Virus record (IMG/VR): IMGVR_UViG_3300030450_001962 | Location: 1-34,160 of that record | Length of the DNA stretch: 34,160 bases | Direction: 5' to 3' (one strand) | Source: a virus | Shown here: piece by piece, positions 2,618 to 9,393 of the stretch | Layout of the letters: each line of letters starts with the position of its first letter | Position numbering within the stretch: position 1 is the first letter of the stretch | Translations under genes and position numbers: made by a program | The notes under the pieces: model-generated | The model's database searches: none | What the model was told of the DNA's origin: nothing | The model's input: the letters and a program-made list of their open reading frames with translations, nothing else

Positions 2618-2675
2618 GTGGTTGATGTGTACTATTTAATCTTAATAAGCTAATAACTTATTGTCAATAAGATAA
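2618..2675 (-). promoter_or_regulatory. Operator-promoter cassette A (erf) with leader octamer
   Basis: Read leftward: TTGACA (2667-2662), 17-nt spacer, TAAGAT (2644-2639), then the leader octamer TCAACCAC (2625-2618) 2 nt before the erf ATG. The two 17-bp operator positions (2659-2675 over the -35 and 2637-2653 over the -10) are recognisable but more diverged than in other cassettes. The -35 sits at the end of the rusA coding sequence. Confidence 0.75.
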
Positions 2676-4087: not shown

Positions 4088-4333
4088 TTAACCTGAAGGA
4101 TCTTGTGCGTTTTTGTTTTTTCTTTTTTTCTTTTTTTTACTAGGCATTCCTTGTAACTCCTTTGTTCTTGTTTCTATTCGTCTGACTTTTTCTTCATGAA
4201 AATGAGTTGCTCTTAGTTTTAACTCTCGATCTGTCATTTCTTGAATCTGTTCAAAATAACGATTGGGCCACGGGATAATTCTTTGACTTGGAGGTTTCCA
4301 GCTCTTTAAGTCGTTTGGGTCATCGTGAATCAT
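4088..4333 (-). CDS. Hypothetical basic protein (81 aa)
   Basis: I take the start at MIHDDPNDLKSWKPPSQRII (4333). A longer frame reaches 4453, but its first 40 codons are another reading of the overlapping small gene at 4320-4469. The product is hydrophilic: a Pro/Trp-containing N-terminus, a helical middle (EQIQEMTDRELKLRATHFHEEK) and a C-terminus dominated by lysine (SKKKKKRKNKN). No family recognised. It lies in the coupled chain of the replication operon and may bind nucleic acid through its basic tail; that is inference from charge only. Confidence 0.55.
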   Translation of the reverse strand: MIHDDPNDLKSWKPPSQRIIPWPNRYFEQIQEMTDRELKLRATHFHEEKVRRIETRTKELQGMPSKKKKKRKNKNAQDPSG

Positions 4334-4469
4334 TTTGGAATCCTTTTGTGGTTGAAAGTGGAAGTTTCTTTTTAGGAGCTTTAGGCTTGGTCCTTTTTTT
4401 TGGTTGGTTGTAATCACGAAAGCTGTTAAGTCTTTCTTTGCCTGTAATTCCAAAACCTGCTTTGCTCAT
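4320..4469 (-). CDS. Small basic protein (49 aa), translationally coupled
   Basis: The ATG at 4469-4467 shares ATGA with the stop of the preceding gene (4466-4741). The frame runs 49 codons, beginning MSKAGFGITGKERLNSFRDY and continuing into a Lys/Pro-rich segment. It ends 14 nt past the start codon of the next gene. The stop/start overlap, used at most other junctions of this operon, is the main reason to prefer this frame over the longer alternative frame covering the same bases. Product unknown. Confidence 0.55.
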   Translation of the reverse strand: MSKAGFGITGKERLNSFRDYNQPKKRTKPKAPKKKLPLSTTKGFQNDSR

Positions 4470-4741
4470 GTTGGAAAATCCTTAGGGTCGATTATTTCCA
4501 CTGACTCGGTTGGTGGGGTTGATTCTCTTGCAAGGTTCTTAAATCTGACACCTTCGTAACCTCTTGGAAAGATCGCAAGGTTTGAGTTTGCATCATCAAT
4601 ACATCTTTGGGCCCCGGGACTTGGTTGATCTAAATCTGCCAACGTCCATAAAGATCTCTCAGGGTTTGATGGGTTAGGCGATTTAAGCCCCCGTTTCAAC
4701 AATTTTATGATCGAGGCTCTGTTGTATAAGGGTTCCATCAA
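4466..4741 (-). CDS. Hypothetical protein (91 aa)
   Basis: The frame starts MMEPLYNRASIIKLLKRGLK, and its ATG overlaps the TGA of the upstream gene (ATGA at 4741-4738). It is soluble and rich in Pro and Asn, with the motif WTLADLDQPSPGAQRCIDDAN. I do not recognise a family. It lies between the DnaD-like protein and the small basic proteins of the replication operon, with overlaps at both ends, so it is very probably expressed and probably linked to replication. Confidence 0.6.
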   Translation of the reverse strand: MMEPLYNRASIIKLLKRGLKSPNPSNPERSLWTLADLDQPSPGAQRCIDDANSNLAIFPRGYEGVRFKNLARESTPPTESVEIIDPKDFPT

Positions 4742-5325
4742 TCGAAGCCTCTGGAGGCCGTAAAGAGGCGTTGTGCAGGATGTCCTGTTGGTGGTTCAGG
4801 ATCAAAAGGCCATTTGTTTTTATTGCTAACGCAGAAATTTTCGTAATTCTTCAACGTGATGCTTTGCCACTCATTTGCAATTGCAAGAGTGATTTGATCT
4901 TTTACAGCATCTTCACCATATTTCTTTTTTATCCCTATCAAACCTTTTTCACCCATCAACAAATTAAAAGCTGCTTCTGTCTTTTTCCCTTTCTTTGAGT
5001 GCCAAAAATCAACGATCAAGCTAGAGGCAGTTTCAAGTTCAAAAGGGATCAGGTCAGCACTAAACTTAAACCTCTTTTTTTTCAAATTTTCTTTTTCCTT
5101 ATTTATACTATTAGGTACTCTATTAGTATTAGATAAAATACCTCCCTCTTTTTTTGTCTCTCTCTCTCTTTCGTTCGGTATTTTAAGGGTATCACATGTG
5201 TCAAGCCCATTTTTCCTGTTTTCAAGGATCATGTTTATATGAGCAGTCATAGATCTGCTTTTGGGCTTTTCGGCGTTTAAGTAGTGATAGTTTTCTGGGT
5301 AGATTCTTATGCTGTTTGTGGTCAT
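4738..5325 (-). CDS. RHH-like N-terminus joined to a DnaD-like C-terminal domain; candidate replication initiator or helicase loader
   Basis: A 195-residue protein, first gene of the recombination-replication operon. Residues 5-35 (IRIYPENYHYLNAEK, then SRSMTAHINMILEN) follow the strand-helix-turn-helix pattern of ribbon-helix-helix proteins. A polar linker (about 40-85) leads to a C-terminal domain (about 86-165). The stretch KKYGEDAVKDQITLAIANEW and the following ITLKNYENF resemble the DnaD/DnaB2 pattern, in which a Tyr-containing helix ends in a Trp. DnaD-like proteins help load replicative helicases, and a DNA-binding domain fused to such a module suggests an origin-binding initiator. Both domain assignments are by eye and need profile searches. 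The gene has its own strong promoter. Confidence 0.55.
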   Translation of the reverse strand: MTTNSIRIYPENYHYLNAEKPKSRSMTAHINMILENRKNGLDTCDTLKIPNERERETKKEGGILSNTNRVPNSINKEKENLKKKRFKFSADLIPFELETASSLIVDFWHSKKGKKTEAAFNLLMGEKGLIGIKKKYGEDAVKDQITLAIANEWQSITLKNYENFCVSNKNKWPFDPEPPTGHPAQRLFTASRGFD

Positions 5326-5339
5326 TGTGTACTAGATCT

Positions 5340-5395
5340 GTGGTTGATTTGTGTAAGGAACGTATTCATTATGCAGCACAGGTTTTTAATGTCAA
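5340..5395 (-). promoter_or_regulatory. Promoter B of the recombination operon, with leader octamer but no -10 operator
   Basis: Read leftward: TTGACA (5395-5390), 16-nt spacer, CATAAT (5373-5368), leader octamer TCAACCAC (5347-5340) 14 nt before the ATG at 5325. Unlike the other cassettes, the spacer and -10 are unrelated to the 17-bp palindrome. Only a diverged copy touches the -35 (AATCCTATTGACA), so this operon may escape the repression that the other units share. Confidence 0.7.
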
Positions 5396-5861: not shown

Positions 5862-6098
5862 TCACCTATAGGAGACACCCTCGAGGTGTTTTGTGCAGGA
5901 GTACTTAAGACCGTGTCTTTTTGCTTCAGCTACCATTGCTTCTTTTTCTTCTAAAGAGTAGGCGTAATCATCCCAGTCTTTTTCAGTAACAATGTGCCAG
6001 TAATAAACAGGGTTTTGTTCCCTTTCGAGCTCTTCTTTGTGGAGTTGGTCTTGCTCTTCTTCGTATCTAAGAAGTGCAGTTTCATGGAAGTCAGACAT
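5862..6098 (-). CDS. Small acidic hypothetical protein (78 aa)
   Basis: It starts MSDFHETALLRYEEEQDQLH two bases after the leader octamer of cassette C. The N-terminal 30 residues are a highly charged helix; the middle contains YYWHIVTEKDWDDYAYSLEEK and a second helix follows. No membrane segment or known motif. It is the only gene between its own operator-promoter and terminator, so it is an independently controlled early product. Function unknown. Confidence 0.65.
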   Translation of the reverse strand: MSDFHETALLRYEEEQDQLHKEELEREQNPVYYWHIVTEKDWDDYAYSLEEKEAMVAEAKRHGLKYSCTKHLEGVSYR

Positions 6099-6100
6099 TT

Positions 6101-6161
6101 GTGGTTGATGTTTGAACTGATTTAATCTTAATAATATTAGTGCATAATGTCAATAAGATTA
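6101..6161 (-). promoter_or_regulatory. Operator-promoter cassette C with leader octamer
   Basis: Read leftward: TTGACA (6153-6148), 17 nt, TAAGAT (6130-6125), octamer TCAACCAC (6108-6101). The -35 lies in operator copy 6145-6161 and the -10 in operator copy 6123-6139 (one base off the perfect palindrome). The copies are offset by 22 bp, about two helical turns. Confidence 0.85.
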
Positions 6162-6201: not shown

Positions 6202-6540
6202 TTAATCGTATGTATCAAAATTAATGGGTTGACCTGTCCAAGGTTCGATTGTTCCTCTGTACGTTTCGTAAGCGGTTTCGCTTCCGTCATACTCGTCAAC
6301 ATTAATTTTTTTCCTGAACTCTGGGCCTCTTTTGGTTGATTCAAGGTCTGGAAGTTTTGTTCCTGCTTGTCCATATCCGTCATGGGTGTGAATGATGCTA
6401 GGAACTTTTTTAAACCATACGGTTTTTTTTGTTCGCCTTGTGACTTGGAAGAAATCAACAAGGCTCATAGTTGCTCCCCATTCCATCATGCAGATTTGAC
6501 CTTCTACAAATTCAAGAGGTTGAAGAATTGTTGTTGTCAT
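6202..6540 (-). CDS. Hypothetical protein (112 aa) in a single-gene operator unit
   Basis: The product starts MTTTILQPLEFVEGQICMME and contains VDFFQVTRRTKKTVWFKKVP followed by a Gly/Tyr block (HDGYGQAGT). The phrase 'DFxQVxRRTxKxVWxK' resembles a family of short phage proteins of unknown function that I recall from other tailed phages. No catalytic motif is visible. The gene stands alone between cassette D and a terminator touching its stop codon. It is one of the longer members of the string of small units. Confidence 0.65.
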   Translation of the reverse strand: MTTTILQPLEFVEGQICMMEWGATMSLVDFFQVTRRTKKTVWFKKVPSIIHTHDGYGQAGTKLPDLESTKRGPEFRKKINVDEYDGSETAYETYRGTIEPWTGQPINFDTYD

Positions 6541-6548
6541 TTGTAAGC

Positions 6549-6603
6549 GTGGTTGATTACCTCTTAATCTTATTAAGATTATTCCTTAATGTCAATAAGA
6601 TTA
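6549..6603 (-). promoter_or_regulatory. Operator-promoter cassette D with leader octamer
   Basis: Leftward TTGACA at 6595-6590, 17-nt spacer, TAAGAT at 6572-6567, octamer TCAACCAC at 6556-6549, 8 nt before the ATG at 6540. Operator copies are 6587-6603 (over the -35) and 6565-6581 (over the -10, a perfect palindrome), offset by 22 bp. Confidence 0.88.
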
Positions 6604-6643: not shown

Positions 6644-6808
6644 TTAGTTCTTTAAAAGTGTTCTTCTGACTTGTTCTTCTTGATAGCGGTTGATCATGTT
6701 TTGGGTTTTGATCTTGGCTTGTCCTGTTACCTTGTCTAGCTGGGCTGTAAGCTCTTGGATTTGGTTAGCAATGTTGAAGTCAGAAAAAGTATGAATTGGA
6801 AGATTCAT
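6644..6808 (-). CDS. Small helical protein (54 aa) in a single-gene operator unit
   Basis: An ATG at 6808 opens 54 codons ending TAA at 6646-6644. The sequence starts MNLPIHTFSDFNIANQIQEL and is mostly one helix rich in Gln, Lys and Arg (LTAQLDKVTGQAKIKTQNMI). No membrane segment or motif. It is bounded by cassette F, 10 nt past the leader octamer, and by a terminator starting at its stop codon, which is strong evidence that this tiny frame is a real gene. Function unknown; an inhibitor or adaptor peptide acting early in infection is a reasonable guess. Confidence 0.75.
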   Translation of the reverse strand: MNLPIHTFSDFNIANQIQELTAQLDKVTGQAKIKTQNMINRYQEEQVRRTLLKN

Positions 6809-6818
6809 TGTGTAAGTC

Positions 6819-6873
6819 GTGGTTGATTACTTCTTAATCTTATTAAGATTATTGGATAATGTCAATAAGATTA
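6819..6873 (-). promoter_or_regulatory. Operator-promoter cassette F with leader octamer
   Basis: Leftward TTGACA at 6865-6860, 17-nt spacer, TAAGAT at 6842-6837, octamer TCAACCAC at 6826-6819. Operator copies are 6857-6873 and 6835-6851 (the latter a perfect palindrome). It closely matches cassette D over the whole element, including the bases around the octamer. Confidence 0.88.
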
Positions 6874-6900: not shown

Positions 6901-6966
6901 GGGGCTTGGTCTGACATGTGGCAATGAAGAACCTCAACCACGGGATTCTTCAAATCAGCAAGCCCC
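6901..6966. ncRNA. Long intergenic stem-loop whose apical loop carries the leader octamer or its complement
   Basis: Outer arms GGGGCTTG (6901-6908) and CAAGCCCC (6959-6966) pair perfectly. After a 2-nt bulge, CTGA (6911-6914) pairs with TCAG (6955-6958). An inner hairpin GAAGAA (6926-6931) / TTCTTC (6946-6951) extends by CC/GG past one bulged A to a 9-nt loop at 6934-6942. On the plus strand the loop reads TCAACCACG; on the minus strand it reads CGTGGTTGA, complementary to the octamer in eight early leaders. No good promoter or T-run was found next to it, so its transcription is unproven and the feature type is provisional. A DNA cruciform or origin element is the main alternative. Confidence 0.5.
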
Positions 6967-6986
6967 GTTCTTATTCTAATTGAGAT

Positions 6987-7018
6987 TAGGGTAAATAGGG
7001 TAAATAGGGTAAATAGGG
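6987..7018. repeat. Tandem 9-bp repeats TAGGGTAAA (3.6 copies)
   Basis: Three full copies and one partial copy of TAGGGTAAA lie between the stem-loop at 6901-6966 and the terminator at 7020-7044, in a stretch with no gene. Direct repeats next to a stem-loop could be protein-binding iterons, for instance at an origin, or simple slippage. Confidence 0.7.
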
Positions 7019-7019
7019 C

Positions 7020-7044
7020 AAAAAAAAAGCCCCCTTGCGGAGGC
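7020..7044 (-). terminator. Rho-independent terminator of gene 7053-7211
   Basis: Leftward stem GCCTCC-GCAA-GGGGGC (7044-7029, one T-G pair) followed by nine Ts (7028-7020), 8 nt after the stop codon. Confidence 0.9.
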
Positions 7045-7052
7045 TGTTTGAT

Positions 7053-7211
7053 TTAGAAGATTGCGGCGACTAGGGCGGTTGCTCCTAGTAAAATTAGAGC
7101 TGATCTTAATTCCTCGGTGAGGTTTTGGATTTGCTCTGCCTGATCTTCGATGAGTGGAACACATTCTGCAATAATTTCAGCTTTTGTGTTTTTCTCAGTG
7201 ATTGAAGTCAT
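7053..7211 (-). CDS. Small tail-anchored membrane protein (52 aa)
   Basis: An ATG at 7211 opens 52 codons ending TAA at 7055-7053. The N-terminal 37 residues form a coiled-coil-like helix (EIIAECVPLIEDQAEQIQNL), and the C-terminus (SALILLGATALVAAIF) is a single transmembrane helix. This coil-then-TM order resembles XhlA-type haemolysin/holin accessory proteins, though it is shorter than that family; other tail-anchored phage effectors look the same. It stands alone between the cassette at 7224-7275 and a strong terminator. Confidence 0.75.
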   Translation of the reverse strand: MTSITEKNTKAEIIAECVPLIEDQAEQIQNLTEELRSALILLGATALVAAIF

Positions 7212-7223
7212 TTGAAGAGTCGT

Positions 7224-7275
7224 GTGGTTGACTTTTTAATCTTAATAAGATTAGTGGATAATCTCAATAAGATTA
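7224..7275 (-). promoter_or_regulatory. Operator-promoter cassette H with leader octamer
   Basis: Leftward TTGAGA at 7267-7262 (one base off TTGACA), 17-nt spacer, TAAGAT at 7244-7239, octamer TCAACCAC at 7231-7224, 12 nt before the ATG. Operator copies are 7259-7275 and 7237-7253 (perfect). Because the -35 reads TTGAGA, the upstream copy is closer to a full palindrome than in other cassettes. Confidence 0.85.
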
Positions 7276-8228: not shown

Positions 8229-8353
8229 TTTAGGGATTCGCAAGCTAGTTGGATTTTGTTGACCTCGCAATCTTGGCGGGTCATGTCGGAAAGGGATGAA
8301 TTAACACCCCAAAAAAGAACCGCCATGAAGGCGGTAAAAAAGAGGAATCTCAT
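8225..8353 (-). CDS. Tiny secreted or membrane-anchored protein (42 aa) overlapping a terminator
   Basis: The ATG at 8353 overlaps the TGA of gene 8350-8631, and its own TGA overlaps the ATG at 8228; both junctions are ATGA. The product starts MRFLFFTAFMAVLFWGVNSS, a signal-peptide-like hydrophobic segment, followed by a short polar tail with two Cys (residues 29 and 37) that could form a disulfide outside the membrane. The hydrophobic codons coincide with an intrinsic-terminator-like hairpin (8311-8335). The double coupling favours a real gene. Function unknown. Confidence 0.6.
   Translation of the reverse strand: MRFLFFTAFMAVLFWGVNSSLSDMTRQDCEVNKIQLACESLK
8311..8335 (-). terminator. Terminator-like hairpin inside the 42-residue gene
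   Basis: Leftward stem ACCGCC-TTCAT-GGCGGT (8335-8319), then TC and six Ts (8316-8311), 15 nt after the stop of the DUF2958-like gene. It lies within the coding frame 8225-8353, so it may reduce transcription of the three downstream genes unless ribosomes cover it. Confidence 0.65.
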
Positions 8354-8631
8354 TTTGTTAATTCCTCGAAATCTGTTGTCTCAAAAGAAAGATCTCTTTC
8401 AACTTTTAGACCGAATGGACCTTGGATCCCTTCGATCTCTTTCATGTTGAAATAGCCCATTTCTTTTTCTTGGCCTTCAACGTATCCGAAGCAGTCGCCT
8501 GTTTCTGGATCGTATTCCATAACGTACCAAGTCCAGTAGCTCCAAGGGGTGAACCATTTCACATACGCTTTGTTAGTAGCTGAATGAATGGCGGGAAGCT
8601 TTTTCTCAAGTGCTTTTGTTAAAAGTTTCAT
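8350..8631 (-). CDS. DUF2958-family protein
   Basis: A 93-residue protein matching the DUF2958 pattern: MKLLTKALEKKLPAIHS at the N-terminus, KWFTPWSYWTWYVMEYDPET, FGYVEGQEKEMGYFNMKEI and GPFGLKVERDLSFE. The family is widespread on plasmids and phages and has no established function as far as I know. Length is normal for the family. It is the first gene of a four-gene translationally coupled unit under cassette J. Confidence 0.85.
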   Translation of the reverse strand: MKLLTKALEKKLPAIHSATNKAYVKWFTPWSYWTWYVMEYDPETGDCFGYVEGQEKEMGYFNMKEIEGIQGPFGLKVERDLSFETTDFEELTK

Positions 8632-8637
8632 GGGCCT

Positions 8638-8692
8638 GTGGTTGATGGCTTTCTAATCTTAATAAGATTATGGGATAATGTCAATAAGATTA
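8638..8692 (-). promoter_or_regulatory. Operator-promoter cassette J with leader octamer
   Basis: Leftward TTGACA at 8684-8679, 17-nt spacer, TAAGAT at 8661-8656, octamer TCAACCAC at 8645-8638, 6 nt before the ATG. Operator copies are 8676-8692 and 8654-8670 (perfect palindrome), 22 bp apart. The upstream copy overlaps the stop codon of gene 8690-9028. Confidence 0.88.
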
Positions 8693-9092: not shown

Positions 9093-9251
9093 TCAGTCGA
9101 TCATTTCCTCGACTGCTTTTTGTAATTTGGCTGTTTCTTTGACGAGTTCGTTAGCGGTTTCAACCATTCGGTCAAGATCTGCTTGGATTTTTTCGTCATG
9201 TCTTTTCATATCTCCAAGGAGGATATTTAAAGATTCAGCAAGTTGTCCCAT
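9093..9251 (-). CDS. Small coiled-coil protein (52 aa) in a single-gene operator unit
   Basis: An ATG at 9251 opens 52 codons ending TGA at 9095-9093. The product starts MGQLAESLNILLGDMKRHDE and is almost entirely one amphipathic helix with heptad-like spacing (KIQADLDRMVETANELVKET), so it should form a coiled-coil dimer or oligomer. No motif identifies its role. It lies between cassette L and the strong terminator at 9067-9084, the same monocistronic layout as 6644-6808 and 7053-7211. Confidence 0.75.
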   Translation of the reverse strand: MGQLAESLNILLGDMKRHDEKIQADLDRMVETANELVKETAKLQKAVEEMID

Positions 9252-9393
9252 GAATTAAGTCCTTTGTGGTTGACTCGTTAATCTTAATAAGATTATTGCC
9301 TTGGGTCAAGCCCTCCCTTAACCATTCACCATGTTTAACTTGCTGTTCTCTGATCTTTCTGCAATGCTCGCAATTACATAAATAATCCTGCAT
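9235..9393 (-). CDS. Possible small Cys-rich protein running into a promoter (52 aa)
   Basis: An ATG at 9393 opens 52 codons beginning MQDYLCNCEHCRKIREQQVK. The C-x-C-x2-C cluster next to a His resembles a zinc-binding knuckle. The second half of the frame reads through cassette L and past the start of the next gene by 17 nt. Either a real gene has had a promoter cassette inserted at its 3' end, or only the first ~30 codons are ancestral. The upstream region has only a weak promoter match. Confidence 0.35.
   Translation of the reverse strand: MQDYLCNCEHCRKIREQQVKHGEWLREGLTQGNNLIKINESTTKDLIHGTTC
9266..9309 (-). promoter_or_regulatory. Operator-promoter cassette L with leader octamer, single operator
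   Basis: Leftward TTGACC at 9309-9304, 17-nt spacer, TAAGAT at 9286-9281, octamer TCAACCAC at 9273-9266. The -10 lies in a perfect operator palindrome (9279-9295); the operator normally over the -35 is absent. AGGA about 8 nt before the ATG makes this one of the few leaders with a Shine-Dalgarno match. Confidence 0.82.

Follow-up and report, generated by a model that had tools for sequence, protein, structure and literature searches.

The phage antisense RNAs c4 (from P1) and CfrI (from cyanophage S-PM2) are each known to serve a single gene or operon. Like the element described here, they are phage-encoded RNAs that act on or overlap genes of the phage itself (reviewed in PMC12197685). In plasmid pMV158, the ribbon-helix-helix (RHH) repressor CopG and the small hairpin antisense RNAII jointly limit expression; RNAII inhibits translation of its one target gene, repB, and its apical loop is secondary in binding (PMC4485353). 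RNAIII of Staphylococcus aureus is a long host RNA, a single structured molecule that pairs in varied ways with several mRNA initiation regions (PMC2837412), and Yfr1 of marine cyanobacteria is a host RNA that pairs with diverse host mRNAs through a short, conserved, exposed and fixed motif (PMC6778093).

The hairpin element described here lies among the early genes of a viral genome and resembles each of these systems in part. As in pMV158, a probable RHH repressor gene belongs to the same regulon as a putative hairpin antisense RNA. However, RNAII serves one gene and is cis-encoded, whereas the phage element has one loop for about nine leaders in trans and lies on the same strand as these targets but at separate places, so a cis antisense RNA of the pMV158 type was ruled out. 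Like RNAIII, the element would pair with several initiation regions, but it would do so with a short loop and an identical tag on all targets, with tag and loop changing together among relatives. It shares with Yfr1 the short exposed motif and the probable host group. With exact 8-nt complementarity to nine leaders near the ribosome binding site, it fits the class of trans-acting base-pairing small RNAs. We consider it rather likely that the element encodes a trans-acting antisense RNA, coexpressed with an early regulon that contains an RHH repressor, which pairs with the leader tags and thereby probably keeps translation from starting. We found no published case in which a whole regulon shares a leader tag and has a matching loop, and searching PMC12197685 by terms gave no comparable scheme. 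Searches against Rfam 15 gave no match at gathering score in the window and only matches far below that score in six relatives (L012, L037, L166, L187, L189, and L199).

Genomic context and the early leader tag

The window (the whole stretch of viral DNA that was analyzed, 34,160 bases) carries a rightward late block typical of a tailed phage, with a terminase, a DUF4055 portal, and Mu F-like and Gp13-like capsid proteins identified by Pfam, and a leftward block of small early genes from 0 to 9.4 kb. No tRNA or tmRNA was found in it. The host is probably a marine picocyanobacterium, because the terminase is closest to those of siphophages of Prochlorococcus and Synechococcus, its nearest isolated relatives, at about 52% identity.

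The window holds 10 copies of the octamer UCAACCAC where 1.06 are expected, a number reached in none of 100 shuffles and thus beyond chance; the initial annotation had allowed for about one chance 8-nt match in a window of this size. Nine copies lie on the minus strand, which is the coding strand of the early genes, where they read TCAACCAC and end 2 to 14 nt before an ATG (Table 1); about 4% of positions are as near to an ORF start. This is one more leader than the eight counted initially, and the two leaders said to extend the match to the loop by one nucleotide do so. The tenth, within the element, is the loop's complement, and there are no others in the window. Most tags sit behind a shared tandem operator-promoter, TTGACATT ... 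TAAGATT within AATCTTATTAAGATT. The tags at 4348 and 5340 are not behind this operator, and the tag is therefore tied to the translation start rather than to the operator. The probable ligand of the operator is the 52-residue RHH protein, which would act as the early repressor. Its gene has the operator in its own promoter, and its leader lacks the tag in both the first and the second lineage of relatives described below, so the repressor would escape the RNA.

Table 1. Positions of the hairpin element, leader tags, and associated features in the window
Feature	Position	Strand	Remarks
Hairpin RNA element (anti-tag RNA)	6901..6966	-	Fold; conserved in 11 other loci, nearly invariant 41-nt core
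Outer stem of element, GGGGCUUG/CAAGCCCC	6901..6966	-	Encloses inner hairpin with anti-tag loop
Loop octamer GUGGUUGA	6934..6941	-	Exact complement of leader tag; co-changes with tags in relatives
Operator-like promoter block TAATCTCAATTAGAATA	6972..6988	-	Precedes element; invariant in lineage-1 relatives; also present in L342, ahead of a tagged protein-coding gene
Tag UCAACCAC of gene 1917-2615	2618..2625	-	ERF recombinase (Pfam ERF)
Tag of gene 4088-4333	4348..4355	-	Inside coding end of preceding gene; without operator
Tag of gene 4738-5325	5340..5347	-	Promoter without operator palindrome
Tag of gene 5862-6098	6101..6108	-	
Tag of gene 6202-6540	6549..6556	-	9-nt match to loop
Tag of gene 6644-6808	6819..6826	-	9-nt match to loop
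Tag of gene 7053-7211	7224..7231	-	19/22 nt complementary to element, up to AUG
Tag of gene 8350-8631	8638..8645	-	
Tag of gene 9093-9251	9266..9273	-	
Tandem operator-promoter of early genes (example; TTGACA, AATCTTATTAAGATT)	6836..6872	-	Others near 2638, 6124, 6566, 7238, 8655, 9280
RHH (CopG-family) protein, 52 aa	5620..5778	-	Pfam RHH_1, 22.4 bits (cut-off, 20.5)

Structure and candidate promoter of the element

The leftward RNA of the element has a fold energy of −26.9 kcal/mol (z = −3.35); 1 of 200 shuffles does equally well. This bears out the hairpin proposed in the initial annotation. The rightward strand also folds (−24.8 kcal/mol; z = −3.0). The outer stem, initially given as 12 bp, consists of 8 bp, a 2-nt bulge, and then 5 bp including one U-G pair; the inner stem has the 8 bp claimed for it, one of them U-G, and the open stretch comprises 10 nt (CCGUGGUUGA) rather than 9, with weak C-G/G-U pairs placed within it by RNAfold. 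As a separate observation, the stretch of the element at 6934 to 6955 and the leader at 7210 to 7231 match at 19 of 22 nt (repeat I21), as if each were an inverted copy of the other. This match was not seen in the leaders of relatives, and the extended pairing looks specific to this genome.

Neither a clear promoter nor a T-run had been recognized for the element. The second statement stands, as no U-run directly follows this first-lineage element in the window, but a candidate promoter is present in the block TAATCTCAATTAGAATA. It contains a −10-like TAGAAT whose end lies 6 nt ahead of GGGG, with the predicted start at or near the GGGG; no good −35 box is evident before the lineage-1 element. 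The block is most likely an operator-promoter of the early regulon, because the same block precedes a tagged protein gene in the relative L342. Directly upstream of it are four tandem 9-bp repeats of TAGGGTAAA (6987 to 7022), which are missing from most relatives; in L342, the promoter block is likewise preceded by a similar stretch.

Co-change of tag and loop among relatives

A scan of IMG/VR relatives for operator and tag yielded 35 stretches; all relatives are metagenomic contigs, many of them short, and not independent isolates. The same element occurs in 11 loci besides the window's own DNA, with differing neighboring genes (lineage 1). Within its 41-nt core a single site varies, and the block TAATCTCAATTAGAATA ahead of it is conserved. 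The 3′ bulge is variable, and in one relative (L012, 4461 to 4582) it is enlarged by an insert exceeding 100 nt.

In another relative with the same operators, L037, the leaders end in AAAACCAC and not in the lineage-1 tag. The loop GUGGUUUU was predicted for this contig from its leaders beforehand and was then found, as CAAAGAAG-UUAGUGGUUUUU-CUUCUUU between genes. A scan for the operator with AAAACCAC gave 12 stretches, and 9 of the 12 carry a hairpin with the loop GUGGUUUU. With two further loci, AAAACCAC pairs with GUGGUUUU in 11 loci (lineage 2), some of them fragments of a single genome or of genomes very much alike, with 8 distinct hairpin sequences in all. In lineage-2 elements, the anti-tag hairpin is flanked on both sides by additional hairpins.

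A third lineage consists of the single contig L342, which was brought in by a promoter-only scan. Here the tag is AAUACCAC and the loop is GUGGUAUU, with leaders reading AATACCAC and an element of the form GGGGCATTGATTAGTGAG-UUUUGUGGUAUUU-CUCGCTAGTCATGTAAGG. Three leaders fit their own loop exactly and one (AAUACCAU) does so via G-U pairing; one AAUACCUC leader and two AAAACCAC leaders each have one mismatch to the loop, as if the switch of tag were incomplete.

When leaders were gathered by the operator alone, lineage 1 gave 55 with TCAACCAC and none with AAAACCAC, and lineage 2 gave 32 with AAAACCAC and none with TCAACCAC. By contig group, the counts of TCAACCAC/AAAACCAC/AATACCAC leaders were 76/1/0, 0/49/0, and 0/2/3, so that leaders fitting their own loop versus that of another lineage numbered 76 versus 1, 49 versus 0, and 3 versus 2. 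The leader variants TCAACCGC, AAAGCCAC, and AAUACCAU still pair through G-U, a point in favor of the leftward RNA. Homologous genes bear the tag of the group in which they reside, as in the MKLLTKAL gene, and even at 4348, where the tag is also coding sequence for the preceding protein, TCAACCAC gives way to AAAACCAC and alters that protein (...PLSTTKGF becomes ...PKTTKGF). The loops GUGGUUUU and GUGGUAUU came from leaders or promoters that were chosen without the loop as a criterion. The initial annotation had named independent divergence of loop and leader octamers as evidence against its proposal; in the three lineages, the two diverge together. That the pairing is maintained by compensatory change between the RNA and its targets is well supported by these comparisons. 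In one relative (L003, 3953 to 3990) and its orthologs in L005, L006, L010, and L012, the leader tag is accompanied by a second copy a few nucleotides past the ATG (ATGACATCAACCAC), which is perhaps a second pairing site.

Outside these lineages, the isolated cyanophages MED4-184, MED4-117, S-H1, and KBS-S-2A (terminase, about 52% identity) gave no tag-and-loop pair of this kind. Homologous genes and its own weak shared leader were seen in marine virus AG-345-A17, but no convincing partner hairpin. The distant relatives L038 and L039 share a leader, ACCCACCAA, behind a different promoter; the 23.9-kb contig yielded no partner loop for it, and co-change is neither supported nor contradicted there. 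A loop-free stem scan and four hits of another scan (L173, L174, L176, and L178) gave chance inverted repeats and were dropped.

The outer motif of lineage 2 also occurs as a shorter element, GGGGCATTG...TCATGTAAGACCCC(TTTT), 6 to 8 nt past a stop codon and without leader tags. Its carriers are contigs of other marine viruses and a contig from one single-cell genome (L187, L189, L199, L203, L208, L212, L218, L225, L230, and L343 at 5205 to 5239). It may be that an older 3′ UTR structure later acquired the anti-tag hairpin. An anti-Shine-Dalgarno reading of the L187-type elements was dropped, since element and leader do not co-change in L199 and L218.

Proposed mechanism and alternatives

We propose that the small RNA would be made together with the early genes, from its own operator-like promoter in lineage 1 and, in lineage 2, by forming the 3′ terminus of an early mRNA. 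The GGGG...CCCC outer stem would present the hairpin so that the loop GUGGUUGA could meet an 8-nt tag 0 to 15 nt before the start codon, and the resulting duplex would cover the ribosome landing site in competition with the 30S subunit. As the RNA accumulates, the early set as a whole would most likely be translated less, which would serve as feedback or timing control. Early shut-off would then have two layers, with the RHH protein acting on transcription at the shared operator and the RNA acting on translation. Because tag and loop co-change in relatives, one RNA probably controls a whole set of the phage's own genes. The sequences themselves show the hairpin, the tags, their complementarity, the co-change in three lineages, and the strand preference. 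Transcription of the element, repression rather than activation, and a role in timing are inferred; the promoter block and the terminators are indirect indications of a discrete transcript.

Most of the loop is predicted to be unpaired, and the tags to be more open than their surroundings (mean unpaired probability, 0.58 to 0.99). In each lineage, the matched loop-tag pair is the most stable of the 8-nt duplexes by energy; the pairing is short, at six to nine base pairs. The loop-to-leader kissing interaction envisaged initially is right as to the exact complementarity, but a strict kissing complex does not fit: the target segments are predicted not to be hairpin loops and to be mostly unpaired, which argues for pairing of a loop with a single strand.

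The same pairing could have the opposite sign, with the RNA protecting the 5′ ends of early mRNAs or keeping leaders open and thereby raising expression. Several tags lie about 1 to 10 nt from the predicted 5′ end, where pairing could shield the message from decay, and the RNA would be coexpressed with its targets. However, tags across the lineages end 0 to 15 nt before the AUG, some directly at it. This is where the 30S subunit sits at initiation, and pairing there should compete with the subunit and block the ribosome. The tags are also predicted to be open already, so the leader needs no freeing. We regard increased expression as unlikely, and repression as the likelier sign than activation or protection.

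Several lines of evidence bear on which strand is read. The lineage-2 stem has 92.9% of cells paired on the leftward-type (GUGGU) strand, with a covariation score reached in none of 500 shuffles, versus 82.1% on the opposite strand, where 17 of 500 shuffles reach the score. In L342, the element folds at −19.4 kcal/mol on the leftward-type strand versus −7.5 kcal/mol on the other. Stem variants form G-U pairs if read leftward and A-C mismatches if read rightward, and compensatory pairs are present too. The lineage-2 element begins at or within a few nucleotides of a same-strand stop codon, and five lineage-2 loci have a same-strand, GC-rich terminator with a T-run after it; an A-run precedes lineage-2 terminators, which could also work in the opposite direction. 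The leftward (minus-strand) reading, already preferred in the initial annotation, is favored because of the G-U and compensatory pairs, the same-strand genes and terminators, and the operator-like promoter that is reused in L342.

These observations also weigh on the idea of a decoy, in which a rightward transcript would show UCAACCAC in its loop and titrate an RNA-binding protein that recognizes the tag. The rightward strand folds too, and one protein binding both loop and tag would likewise predict their co-change. Yet rightward reading turns the G-U variants into A-C mismatches, the lineage-2 elements come after genes and before terminators on the leftward-type strand, and the specificity of the protein would need to change twice, all of which makes the decoy improbable. 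Least probable by our estimate is a 3′ UTR or terminator-like structure or a DNA site whose loop resembles the tags by ancestry or chance, for instance as an inverted leader copy: the outer motif does occur in other marine virus contigs without such leaders and the window element does resemble an inverted copy of the 7224 leader, but such a copy would not track the tag through two further changes, the distance between tag and operator varies, two window tags lack the operator palindrome, and a tag within coding sequence still switches with the lineage.

Implications

Very little is known of regulatory RNAs from phages of marine cyanobacteria, and control of a regulon by one RNA through a private tag would be a new layout. 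The co-change of loop and tag in wild relatives resembles a natural compensatory-mutation experiment, and the idea is directly testable. Cyanobacterial Hfq is atypical, and the usual helpers of small RNAs may be missing; the tag and anti-tag pair could provide a compact, exchangeable means of controlling translation in these bacteria. More speculatively, and with considerable doubt on our part, each phage lineage may have its own early-leader tag and matching anti-tag RNA as an RNA address code that gives rise to RNA-based immunity groups. If so, the RNA would silence the early genes of a superinfecting phage with the same code but not those of a phage that is coded differently.
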